A DNA stretch of 64,000 nt. Origin: Candidatus Segetimicrobium genomatis. GTDB lineage: Bacteria; Sysuimicrobiota; Sysuimicrobiia; Sysuimicrobiales; Segetimicrobiaceae. A program made the translations under genes and the position numbers. Positions 27,947-32,478 of this stretch are shown here, piece after piece (positions within the stretch are counted from its first letter, which is position 1; every line of letters begins with the position of its first letter). The notes under the pieces are model-generated. The model had not been told where the DNA came from. It saw only the letters and a program-made list of their open reading frames with translations, and made no database searches. The stretch spans positions 1 to 64,000 of the forward strand of contig VBAK01000107.1 of NCBI GenBank assembly GCA_005882275.1. The letters are read 5' to 3'.

Positions 27947-29239
27947 ATGAAGTATCCGTTCCTTGTGGGTTTACTGGCCCTTGTCACGGCGGCGACGCGG
28001 CTGCCCGAGGCTCCCTCGGCTTTCGACGGCGTGAGCAACGGCCTGGTGGACAGCACGACCCACCAGACCGACCAGTCTAGGTTTGACGAGGTGGAGGGGG
28101 TGGACGATGGGCTCGGCCCTCTCTACAACGCCCAATCCTGCCGCGAGTGCCACCAGAACCCGGTCTCGGGGGCGACCAGCCAGATCACGGAGTTGCGGGT
28201 CGGCCACCGCGCCGGCGGTCGGTTCGAGAATCCCTCGATCCCCATTGCGCGCGGAACCGTGGTCATCGCCGGCCGCTCGCTCGTGAACGACCGCGCCATC
28301 TGCCCCAGCGCCCAGTTTTCGAACACGGAGATTCAGGAACGCGTGCCGCTGACGGAAACCATTATGACGACGCGGGTCTCGCTCGGCCTCCTGGGTGACG
28401 GCTTCGTCGAGGCGGTGGCGGACGAGACGCTCATCAACGTGGCGCGCAGGCAGCCCGCCCAGAGCGGCGGGAAGATCCGGGGGCAGGCGCTCTACGTCCC
28501 CGTCGTTGAGGCCCCCGGGGAGACGAGGATCGGGCGGTTCGGCTGGAAGGACCAGCACGCCAGCCTGCTGTCGTTTTCCGCCGACGCCTACCTGAACGAA
28601 ATGGGCATCACCAGCCGGCTGCAGCCGGACGAGGTGACGGCGCTCTGCAATACCGCGCAGGAGCCGAACAACCGGCCGGAATCGGACGGACTCGAGGACA
28701 TCGACCACTTCACCCGCTTCATCCGGGCCGCGAAGGCTCCCCCCCGCGACGCGGTGCTCGCGGAGACGGCGAGCGCCATGCGCGGATCCCAGATCTTCGA
28801 CGCCGTCGGCTGCGCCATCTGTCACGTCCGAACCCTGACCACCGCGCCGGCGGGCACGAAGATCAACGGGGGGATGTTTACGATTCCCGCGGCCCTGGGG
28901 GGAAAGGCCTTCCATCCCTTCAGCGATTACCTGCTGCACAACGTGGGCACCGGCGACGGCATCGTCCAGTCCTTCCAGGAGCACTACGGTCGCAGAGCGT
29001 ACAGCGTCGGTTGGAGAAATCTGTCGGCGGGTGATTTCTACAACACCGCGGACAAGATCCGGACCGCGCCCCTGTGGGGCGTCCGGATGCAGACCAGGCT
29101 GATGCACGATGGGCTGTCGCTGACGTTCCGCGATGCGATCCTGCGCCACCGGCGCGAGGCCAACGATGTCACGCTGCGCTTTGAAAACCTCTCCTCCGGT
29201 CAGCAGGAAGAACTCTTTCAGTTCCTGAGATCTCTGTAG
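27947..29239 (+). CDS. di-heme oxidoreductase family cytochrome c, paralog 1
   Basis: Exported c-type cytochrome of the di-heme oxidoreductase (DUF1111, cytochrome c peroxidase/MauG-related) family; 430 residues. A signal peptide (MKYPFLVGLLALVTAA) is followed by two heme-binding CxxCH motifs: CRECH near residue 65 and CAICH near residue 289. The C-terminal half carries HNVGTGDG and a met-rich LWGVRMQTRLMHDG block that supplies axial ligands. The ATG at 27947 is preceded by GGGAGAA. A close paralog follows in tandem, 123 bases downstream. The substrate is unknown. Confidence 0.88.
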   Translation: MKYPFLVGLLALVTAATRLPEAPSAFDGVSNGLVDSTTHQTDQSRFDEVEGVDDGLGPLYNAQSCRECHQNPVSGATSQITELRVGHRAGGRFENPSIPIARGTVVIAGRSLVNDRAICPSAQFSNTEIQERVPLTETIMTTRVSLGLLGDGFVEAVADETLINVARRQPAQSGGKIRGQALYVPVVEAPGETRIGRFGWKDQHASLLSFSADAYLNEMGITSRLQPDEVTALCNTAQEPNNRPESDGLEDIDHFTRFIRAAKAPPRDAVLAETASAMRGSQIFDAVGCAICHVRTLTTAPAGTKINGGMFTIPAALGGKAFHPFSDYLLHNVGTGDGIVQSFQEHYGRRAYSVGWRNLSAGDFYNTADKIRTAPLWGVRMQTRLMHDGLSLTFRDAILRHRREANDVTLRFENLSSGQQEELFQFLRSL

Positions 29240-29362
29240 CGGGGACGCGGGGCACGACATCGCGCCGGCGCCGGAGTTTGGGCCGCCGGGGAGAGGGGCA
29301 TACTCCACAATAGCAGCAAGATGCCATAGGGGCTCGCCGGGTGGCGGGAACGGAGAGATCCC

Positions 29363-30664
29363 GTGAGGTACGCGGCTGTCGTGGGGCTGGTGGGCATCGT
29401 GGCTGCGGCCGTGGCCGCGCCGCCGCCGGAGGCGCCCTCGGGGTTCGACAACAAGAGCAACGGCATGGTGGACGAGGCGATCCACCAGGCGGACCTGAAG
29501 ACGTTCGACGAGGTCGAGGCGTTGGACGACGGGCTGGGCCCCCTCTACAACGCTCAATCCTGCCGCGAGTGCCACCAGTCCCCGGTGTCCGGGGCGACCA
29601 GCCAGGTCACAGAATTGCGCGTGGGCCATCGCGGTCCCGATGGGCGGTTCCAGGAGCCGAGGATTCCCATTGCGCGCGGAACCGTGATCATCGCCGGCCG
29701 CACGCTCGTGAACGACCGCGCCGTCTGTCCCAACGGCCAGTTCCCGGACACGGAGATTCAGGAGCGCGTGCCCCTGACGGAAACCATCCGCACGACCCGG
29801 GTCTCGCTCAACCTCCTTGGCGACGGGTTTGTGGAAGCGGTGGCGGACCGGACGCTGATCGAGCTGGCGGGCCGGCAGCCGGGCGAGAGCCGCGGCAGGA
29901 TTCACGGGCACGCGATCTTTGTCCCCATCCTGGAGGCCCCGGGGCGGACGGGGATCGGGCGGTTCGGCTGGAAGGATCAACAGGCCAGCCTGCTCTCGTT
30001 TTCCGGCGACGCCTATCTGAACGAGATGGGCATCACGAGCCGGCTGTTCCCGGATGAGGTGACCGCGCTCTGCAACACCGCGCAGGAGCCGAACAACCGG
30101 CCGGGCTCGGACGGGCTCGAGGACATCGACCATTTTACGCGCTTCATGCGGGCCGCCAAGGCTCCGCCCCGCGACGCGGTGCTCGCGGCCACGCCCAGCG
30201 CCGTGCGCGGGTCCCAGGTCTTTGACTCGATCGGGTGCGCGATCTGCCACGTCCGATCCCTGACCACCGCGCCGGCGGGCACGAAGATCAACGGGGGGAC
30301 GTTCACGATCCCGGCGGTCCTCGGCGGGAAGACCTTCCACCCCTTCAGCGATTTCCTGCTCCACGACGTGGGGACGGGAGACGGCATCGTGATTGCCGCC
30401 CAGGAGCACTACGGGCCAAAGATGCGCACGATCAGCTGGAAGAACCTCTCGATCCAGGACCTCCAGGACACGGCGAACCGCATCCGGACCGCGCCGTTGT
30501 GGGGGGTTCGGATGCAGACCAGGCTCATGCACGACGGCGCGTCGCTCACCTTCCGCGACGCCATTCTCCGGCACAAGGGCGAGGCCGGCGAGGTCACGGA
30601 GCGCTACCAGAGGCTCTCCCACCAACAAAAGGAAGACCTCTTCCAGTTCTTGAGTTCCCTGTAG
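29363..30664 (+). CDS. di-heme oxidoreductase family cytochrome c, paralog 2
   Basis: Tandem paralog of the preceding gene, 433 residues and similar end to end, with the same signal peptide type (MRYAAVVGLVGIVAAAVA) and heme motifs CRECH and CAICH. The second copy has HDVGTGDG where the first has HNVGTGDG. The GTG start at 29363 follows GGAGAGAT. The duplication is old enough that the two differ throughout, including the segment after the second heme. They may form a heterodimer or act on different partners. No cytochrome maturation gene lies in the window. Confidence 0.88.
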   Translation: MRYAAVVGLVGIVAAAVAAPPPEAPSGFDNKSNGMVDEAIHQADLKTFDEVEALDDGLGPLYNAQSCRECHQSPVSGATSQVTELRVGHRGPDGRFQEPRIPIARGTVIIAGRTLVNDRAVCPNGQFPDTEIQERVPLTETIRTTRVSLNLLGDGFVEAVADRTLIELAGRQPGESRGRIHGHAIFVPILEAPGRTGIGRFGWKDQQASLLSFSGDAYLNEMGITSRLFPDEVTALCNTAQEPNNRPGSDGLEDIDHFTRFMRAAKAPPRDAVLAATPSAVRGSQVFDSIGCAICHVRSLTTAPAGTKINGGTFTIPAVLGGKTFHPFSDFLLHDVGTGDGIVIAAQEHYGPKMRTISWKNLSIQDLQDTANRIRTAPLWGVRMQTRLMHDGASLTFRDAILRHKGEAGEVTERYQRLSHQQKEDLFQFLSSL

Positions 30665-30831
30665 CGCCCGCGGGCTCTTCGCGCGGCCCTCCCGGCTCAG
30701 GGCGCGTCGGCCTTCCCTCGCGCCGATCCGGCCGCGCCGGGACCGCCCCCGCCGGGCCGTGCGCCAGGCAGGATCGGGAGCGGGACACCATCGAAGACAC
30801 CCCGCACATATCGATACCGCGGAGGATTCCC

Positions 30832-31260
30832 GTGGCTGAACACAACATGGTCGACACGGTCCGGACCCGCTCGATCGGCCTGCCGGGGCGCGCGCTCAAC
30901 AGCGCGCGCACACACCACTTTGTCCTCGACTCCTCATCGGGCCCCAGCGAGGCCTTGACCAACAGCGAGGCGTTCCTGGCCGGGATCTCCTCCTGCGGCG
31001 TGACGCTGATCGAGAAGTACGCGAAGGAAGCCGGGATGCCGCTGACCGGGATGGAGATCACGATCACGGGCACCCGCGCGGCCAATCCGGCCCGATTCCA
31101 GGCCATCGCGATGCGCTTCGAGATCCACGGCGTGGACAAGGCGGCGGCCGACCGGCTCGTCGAGGTCTGGCAGGCGCGCTGACCCCTCTACCGGACGGTC
31201 GCGGTCGCGACCGAGGTGAAGCTCGAAGTCGTGGCGCGGCCGCGGCCCGCGGCGGTCTGA
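30832..31260 (+). CDS. OsmC-family protein, candidate selenoprotein (in-frame TGA)
   Basis: OsmC/Ohr-like thiol peroxidase family. The GTG at 30832 follows GGAGGATTCCC. Reading gives 116 residues to a TGA at 31180, with the first redox cysteine in AGISSCGVTLIEK (Cys55). In the same frame after the TGA comes PLYRTVAVATEVKLEVVARP and a normal stop at 31258. In family members the position before PLYRT or PVxRT is the second redox cysteine, so the TGA stands exactly at that cysteine. A 7-bp GC hairpin follows at the distance of a bacterial SECIS element. I therefore annotate through the TGA as Sec117, 142 residues in all, the normal OsmC length. A nonsense mutation or sequencing error is the alternative. 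Confidence 0.72.
31196..31213 (+). promoter_or_regulatory. bSECIS-like hairpin for selenocysteine insertion
   Basis: CGGTCGC (31196-31202) pairs perfectly with GCGACCG (31207-31213) around the loop GGTC. The loop starts 21 bases after the TGA, within the 16-37 range of bacterial SECIS elements. Its GGTC resembles the GGUC in the E. coli fdhF apical loop that SelB recognises. GC-rich DNA forms such hairpins by chance, so this is support rather than proof. Confidence 0.55.
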
Positions 31261-31308
31261 TGGCGCGACGCGCCGGACCCGGCGTGTCCCCGATCAGAGG
31301 GAGGAGCG

Positions 31309-32478
31309 ATGAAGCCTGAGACGAGGCTGGTGCATGCCGGCCGGGATCCCGGGAAGAACTTCGGCGTGGTGAACCCCCCCGTGTACCGCGCCTCGACGAT
31401 CCTGTTCCCGACGACCGCGGAGTTCGAGCGCCGGCGCGAGCGCAAGTACACGGGCTTCTACTACGGCACCCACGGCACCCCGACCACGTTCGCGCTGGCG
31501 GAGGCCGTCGCGGAGCTCTCGGGCGGCCATCGCTCGCTCATCACCTCCTCGGGGCTCTCGGCCATTACCCAGGCGCTGACGGCGTTCCTGCGCCAGGGCG
31601 ATCACCTCCTGGTGGCCGACACGGTGTACGAGCCGACACGAACCTTCTGCACGTCGGTGCTGGCCCGGTTCGGGGTCGAGGTGACCTTCTACGACCCGCA
31701 TGCCGGGGCGGAGATCGGCGCGCTGATGCGGCCCCGGACGCGGGTGGTCTACGCGGAGTCGCCGGGGTCCCAGACGTTCGAAGTGCAGGACGTGCCCGCG
31801 ATCGCCCGGGCGGCGCACGAACGCGGCGCGGTGGTGCTGTTCGACAATACCTGGGCGACGCCGCTGAACTTCCGGTCGTTCGAACACGGCGTGGATGTGG
31901 AGATCCAGGCGGCGACCAAGTACCTCGCCGGCCACTCGGACCTCCTCCTCGGCGTGATCACGGCGCGCACCGAGGAGCACTTCCGCACGGTCAAAGACGG
32001 TCTCGGCGATTTCGGCGACTGCGTCGCTCCGGACCTCTGCTACGAAACGCTGCGGGGACTGCGCACGCTGGCGGTGCGCCTCCGCCGCCACGAGCGCTCG
32101 GCGCTCGAGGTGGCCCACTGGCTGGCGCGGCGCCCCGAGGTCGCCCGGGTCCTCCACCCGGCCCTGCCGGAGACCCCCGGCCACGCGCTGTGGAAGCGGG
32201 ATTTCCTGGGCGCCTCCAGCCTGTTTGGGGTGCTCCTGCGCACGGCGTCCACCGGCGCCGTCGCCGCGATGCTCGACGGGCTCCGCCTCTTCAAGATTGG
32301 CGCCAGCTTCGGGGGATTCGAGAGCCTCATTATTCCCACATCGCCCGCCGCGAACCGGACCGCCCGTCCCTGGAGGGAACCGGGGCTGCTCCTGCGGCTG
32401 CACGTGGGGCTCGAAGCGGCCGAGGACCTGATCGCGGATCTGGAGGCCGGGTTCGACCGCCTCAGCGCGGCCTCGTAA
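31309..32478 (+). CDS. metC: cystathionine beta-lyase (Cys/Met metabolism PLP enzyme)
   Basis: PLP-dependent gamma-family enzyme of 389 residues that would cleave cystathionine to homocysteine, pyruvate and ammonia. It shows the N-terminal TRLVHAGRDP...NPPVYRASTILFP typical of MetC, the PLP-contact segment YAESPGSQTFEVQDV, DNTWATP, and the Schiff-base lysine in QAATKYLAGHSDLLLG. RBS is AGGGAGGAG. A split from cystathionine gamma-lyase or synthase rests on overall resemblance. It is 48 bases after the OsmC-like gene. Confidence 0.88.
   Translation: MKPETRLVHAGRDPGKNFGVVNPPVYRASTILFPTTAEFERRRERKYTGFYYGTHGTPTTFALAEAVAELSGGHRSLITSSGLSAITQALTAFLRQGDHLLVADTVYEPTRTFCTSVLARFGVEVTFYDPHAGAEIGALMRPRTRVVYAESPGSQTFEVQDVPAIARAAHERGAVVLFDNTWATPLNFRSFEHGVDVEIQAATKYLAGHSDLLLGVITARTEEHFRTVKDGLGDFGDCVAPDLCYETLRGLRTLAVRLRRHERSALEVAHWLARRPEVARVLHPALPETPGHALWKRDFLGASSLFGVLLRTASTGAVAAMLDGLRLFKIGASFGGFESLIIPTSPAANRTARPWREPGLLLRLHVGLEAAEDLIADLEAGFDRLSAAS

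Follow-up and report, generated by a model that had tools for sequence, protein, structure and literature searches.

Proteins of the Ohr/OsmC superfamily are known for two redox cysteines, i.e., a first, peroxidatic one and a second one, carried by a CP motif, which acts as the resolving residue. In the known Ohr/OsmC enzymes, the dithiol donor is a lipoylated protein. As for the hairpins (bSECIS) that accompany selenocysteine (Sec) codons in bacteria, the one of E. coli fdhF presents a GGUC apical loop shortly past the UGA. A published model of these elements describes a loop of 3–9 nt with a G in its first two positions, a stem of 4–16 bp, a distance of 16–37 nt from the UGA to the loop and a minimum free energy of −7.5 kcal/mol or below, and gives the pattern N1-G-[G/U]-N-N2, in which N1 and N2 are paired (PMC13188914). 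Both themes meet in the OsmC-like selenoproteins, which have been predicted in the Sargasso Sea (PMC1088965) and GOS (PMC2398784) data and are also listed elsewhere (PMC9312934, PMC13188914); their redox motif is UxxT and the sets comprise 3 and 5 marine sequences. The YhfA-type proteins, for their part, possess neither the catalytic Arg nor the catalytic Glu, and no activity is known for them (PMC8945050).

Here, we analyzed a stretch of 64,000 nucleotides from Candidatus Segetimicrobium genomatis (contig VBAK01000107.1, positions 1–64,000), hereafter the window, which carries an OsmC-family gene interrupted by an in-frame TGA. Sequence, Pfam and relatives lead us to give a probability of about 0.96 to the reading in which this gene (30832–31260, + strand) encodes a selenoprotein, with Sec117 translated from the UGA at 31180. 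The GTG start codon is preceded, 6 nt on its 5′ side, by a Shine-Dalgarno-like GGAGG (30821–30825, + strand). From this GTG, 116 codons lead to the in-frame UGA (31180–31182, + strand), and the same frame continues for 25 more codons (PLYRTVAVATEVKLEVVARPRPAAV) up to the true stop codon, TGA (31258–31260, + strand), where family members have TGA, TAA or TAG. The read-through product thus comprises 142 residues. The 116 residues up to the TGA, the stop at 31258 and the total of 142 residues are those of the original prediction; the peptide that it gave after the TGA is a real continuation as well, of which it quoted only the first 20 of the 25 residues.

The TGA recurs at one and the same column in relatives. 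Indeed, among 147 relatives searched, 15 genomes have a TGA in their best homologue, and the alignment of these 15 genomes places it at a single column within R-U-P-L-Y-R/G-T-V-A-V-A-T. Wider searches added one more distant genome with a TGA copy; the phylum of genome G126 yielded 40 copies in 39 genomes, all with TGA, and the phylum of genome G139 one further copy. We count 56 TGA-bearing copies in 55 genomes, each with the TGA in frame, and all of the 46 distinct loci that were read base by base (L054 and L074 being the same) have it at the same column. The genomes concerned are drafts, in part metagenome-assembled. They cover the genus and family of the window, three remoter members of its order, a phylum containing Candidatus Rokuibacteriota and two other phyla. 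Locus L053, named Terrabacteria group bacterium ANGP1, is the contig of genome G004, from the window's genus, and L054, named Candidatus Rokuibacteriota, is the same gene as that of genome G452, from the phylum of G126. A single close homologue has a cysteine, the one of genome G090, which reads TGT at the column (RCPLYRTVARA). Hence, the column is occupied by TGA in every clade copy read and by Cys in G090, which is the Cys/TGA pattern that the original prediction had proposed to look for. A tree was also built, which included short Cys fragments; it is unreliable for the Cys rows and served only for the clustering of the Sec rows.

Shortly after the UGA lies a hairpin, CGGUCGC-GGUC-GCGACCG (31196–31213, + strand), made of a perfect 7-bp stem (31196–31202 and 31207–31213) and a loop (31203–31206) situated 20 nt from the UGA. 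Such a stem, with its GGTC loop and within bSECIS distance, had been announced beforehand; it is found exactly at this place, it agrees with the bSECIS model and it covaries. The 4-nt loop GGUC, the 7-bp stem, the spacing of 20 nt and a folding energy of −17.1 kcal/mol over 42 nt all fall inside the published bounds (PMC13188914). In the window, only 3 of 1275 TGAs are followed, within the bSECIS range, by a perfect 7-bp stem closing a 4-nt loop with an early G. Folding energy, on the other hand, was discarded as evidence: at 71% G+C, 90% of the window's TGAs pass the −7.5 kcal/mol threshold, and it is thus uninformative. What decides is the comparison between genomes. A scan of 30700–31700 against Rfam returned only chance-level matches, far under the gathering scores. 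The window's genome contains no other identical hairpin, and this single copy indicates that the element is specific to the gene and not a repeat.

Comparison between relatives shows that the core of the hairpin (31197–31212) is conserved, in the form GGUCGC-[N G N N′]-GCGACC, 15–30 nt past the UGA. Its six codons are identical at synonymous sites in 11/11 diverged genomes, and among the other conserved fourfold-type codons of the same eleven genomes 1/34 is identical and 33/34 vary (hypergeometric probability 1.8e-6, for rows that are not fully independent). The hairpin is the gene's only stretch with frozen synonymous sites. Across 44 distinct sequences, the stem is paired in 99.7% of the cells and GGUCGC/GCGACC is nearly invariant, while the loop-closing pair covaries (GC in 32 sequences, AU in 8, GU in 3 and CG in 1). 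A second, inner pair changes from U-A to C-G in one distant member. This level of covariation was reached by 0 of 500 shuffles. Moreover, in the phylum of G126 (L089–L102), the loop codon can stand for Val, Ala, Gly or Asp, and the stem bases are fixed. This drift of the loop residue beside a fixed stem indicates that the RNA, more than the residue, is under selection, and offers a clean natural example of such a constraint within a coding region. The Cys homologue of G090 does not have such a hairpin.

The Sec genes on which the original prediction depended, i.e., selA, selB, tRNA-Sec and selD, are all present in the window's genome. The bin contains the selA-selB set twice (L123 on contig C11 and L124 on contig C34), a tRNA-Sec accompanying each copy, and two selD genes. 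When compared with a genome of the same genus, the C11 set shows 74% identity for SelA and 69% for SelB, whereas the C34 set is far from that genome's own. The C11 set is therefore probably native, while the C34 set, which comes with a selD, does not look like one of this genus and may be a bin contaminant. The C11 set and the OsmC gene are on different contigs, in a bin whose contamination amounts to 5.9%. Beyond this genome, selA scores above its family cut-off in 15/15 of the TGA-OsmC genomes from the search of 147 relatives. A TGA also lies within the frame of one of the selD genes (L019, contig C81, 14658–15578), where it forms part of the motif CAG-U-ASK and is followed by a hairpin with a GGUCC or GUC loop. 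SelD is thus likely a selenoprotein in its turn, which would be another sign that UGA can mean Sec in the window's genome.

Could the TGA at 31180 simply be a true stop, closing a natural OsmC of 116 residues, the similarity downstream being residual? The truncated protein still scores 36.7 bits against the Pfam OsmC family (PF02566), above the curated cut-off of 27.5 bits, but the read-through protein, also above it, reaches 53.2 bits with a match that extends to the end of the profile (100/100). The truncated form, moreover, would have neither the second redox residue nor the final strand of the OsmC fold. Nor is the TGA column an end in relatives: they read on past it, the protein that follows is conserved (RUPLYRTVAVAT), its codons are among the best kept of the gene across several phyla, and the later stops are TGA, TAA or TAG at variable places. 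This conservation refutes a true stop, which we consider very improbable. A sequencing error or a decaying gene would be compatible with the draft state of the assembly, and the original prediction had itself envisaged a TGC or TGT misread as TGA; however, the same TGA occupies the same column in 55 genomes, and nearly all TGA copies have no other stop within their alignable part, which excludes this explanation, the least probable of all. An open frame by itself cannot tell Sec from another amino acid inserted through a general recoding (e.g., UGA = Trp) or from plain read-through. Nevertheless, UGA is the ordinary stop codon of this very gene (31258), the column holds Cys and not Trp, both in the homologue of G090 and in relatives of solved structure, and both a SECIS-type hairpin and a complete Sec system are present. 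Recoding or plain read-through is as improbable as a true stop. Sequence evidence thus shows coding past the UGA, a SECIS element, a machinery for Sec, the OsmC fold and the redox column.

The model of the read-through protein, with Sec entered as Cys, was predicted from an alignment of three rows and has a mean pLDDT of 82. Its best Foldseek matches are OsmC-like proteins, among them the M. pneumoniae OsmC-like protein, Aq1549 (2egt), E. coli YhfA (1ml8) and Ohr proteins; together with the 53.2 bits obtained against PF02566, this fold places the protein in the OsmC superfamily. When the family profile is aligned to solved Ohr proteins, Cys55 (codon TGC, 30994–30996, + strand) corresponds to the first, peroxidatic Cys, and Sec117 to the one that belongs to the CP motif. 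Counting Sec as Cys, the protein thus has the two redox cysteines of Ohr/OsmC at equivalent columns, and the assignment of the TGA to the second catalytic cysteine, first made without any database search, agrees with the profile alignment to solved Ohr/OsmC. All family members share Cys55, Sec117, Pro118, Leu119 and Tyr120. In this same profile alignment, the column of the Ohr catalytic Glu is of Ser/Thr type, an invariant Glu being found one residue further on; two Arg are also invariant, though their match to the Ohr catalytic Arg is unsure. Since the Glu column is of Ser/Thr type, canonical Ohr catalysis is not assured.

From these elements, we infer actual Sec insertion as well as a peroxidase activity and an electron donor, with either Cys55 or Sec117 as the residue that attacks the substrate, according to the following scheme. 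SelB and Sec-tRNA(Sec) would bind the GGUCGC[GGUC]GCGACC hairpin just past the UGA at 31180, and Sec would be inserted at this codon, creating a Cys55/Sec117 redox pair. By homology, organic hydroperoxides or related oxidized substrates would be reduced, a Cys55-Sec117 selenenylsulfide would form during turnover, and this bond would be re-reduced by a dithiol donor. By analogy with its relatives, a thiol/selenol peroxidase chemistry has, in our opinion, about one chance in two of being the right one for this clade. The protein might also be a selenoprotein and yet no peroxidase, resembling YhfA and acting perhaps on sulfur or selenium compounds. YhfA (1ml8) and Aq1549 (2egt) do figure among the top Foldseek matches, and the YhfA type lacks the catalytic Arg/Glu and any known activity (PMC8945050); at the level of sequence profiles, however, it is the Ohr proteins that head the matches. 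As a possible hint of a sulfur or selenium role, a cystathionine beta-lyase-like PLP enzyme (31309–32478, + strand) directly follows the OsmC gene on its 3′ side, and it adjoins the gene in 2 of the 13 other genomes inspected, but it was not found next to it in the eleven remaining ones. A conserved operon was consequently rejected, and no function is drawn from this context. We hold the YhfA-like role to be a serious alternative, at somewhat lower odds than the peroxidase.

On the 5′ side, the gene is directly preceded by two tandem di-haem oxidoreductase genes (27947–30664; DHOR, PF06537, putative peroxidase), apparently the result of a duplication. A plasmid search gave no match.

If translated as proposed, the selenoprotein would belong to a well-supported clade with an unusually clear SECIS, combining synonymous freezing and compensatory changes inside a coding region. 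In a large share of the uncultured lineages of soil and groundwater, standard gene finders would miss this gene or cut it short. No NCBIfam model covers the UPLY clade, and a search of the open-licence literature for selenoproteins of Rokubacteria/Methylomirabilota yielded no paper on it. We regard it as an even bet that this is an undescribed and widespread OsmC clade in which Sec sits at the resolving and not at the peroxidatic position. If so, either the catalytic roles would be swapped in this clade or Sec would speed the recycling of the enzyme; this raises the question of why, in a thiol peroxidase fold, Sec is placed at the resolving and not at the attacking position of Ohr/OsmC.

Two other OsmC genes with an in-frame TGA were encountered. 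In a second OsmC of the same order (L105; genome G026, contig C1, 2956610–2956915), the TGA is at the first (peroxidatic) Cys, within LGF-U-EGVQFAR, and the hairpin after it has an 8-bp stem and a GGC loop, which makes this gene a second candidate Sec-OsmC form. With this TGA at the first Cys and its hairpin, both positions seem to be used, and Sec may have entered the two positions of the OsmC fold independently. In the other gene (L104; genome G013, contig C19, 12369–12659), the TGA comes about ten codons before the first Cys (AGA-TGA-PVELVLLSLGGC), at a column where relatives have no Cys, and only weak hairpins follow; it could reflect decay, an error or something else.

Compared with the lipoyl peroxidases of the Ohr/OsmC type (P. 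aeruginosa Ohr, 1n2f; E. coli OsmC, 1nye), the protein shares the fold, the two redox positions and the CP motif at the second of them, but it has Sec in place of the second Cys, about 15–25% identity, and, in the profile alignment, no Glu at the Glu column. The YhfA-type proteins (E. coli YhfA, 1ml8; Aq1549, 2egt) are among the best structural matches and have two Cys positions and a similar length; here again, Sec replaces the second Cys, and sequence identity is low. At the RNA level, the hairpin resembles the bSECIS of E. coli fdhF, as generally known, by its GGUC apical loop soon after the UGA, and differs from it by a stem without bulged U and of another sequence. Lastly, with the published OsmC-like selenoproteins the clade has in common the PF02566/COG1765 fold, a UGA-encoded Sec and a bSECIS, both groups being computational predictions. 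The original prediction saw in the gene a further case of this reported family. It is an OsmC-like selenoprotein indeed; however, every member of the clade reads UPLY at the second Cys instead of UxxT, so that it is not merely another copy. As the first Cys of the clade mostly reads CGVT, it is possible that the published UxxT form carries its Sec at the first Cys. Finally, the UPLY clade comprises uncultured lineages with at least 55 genomes, against the 3 and 5 marine sequences of the published sets.
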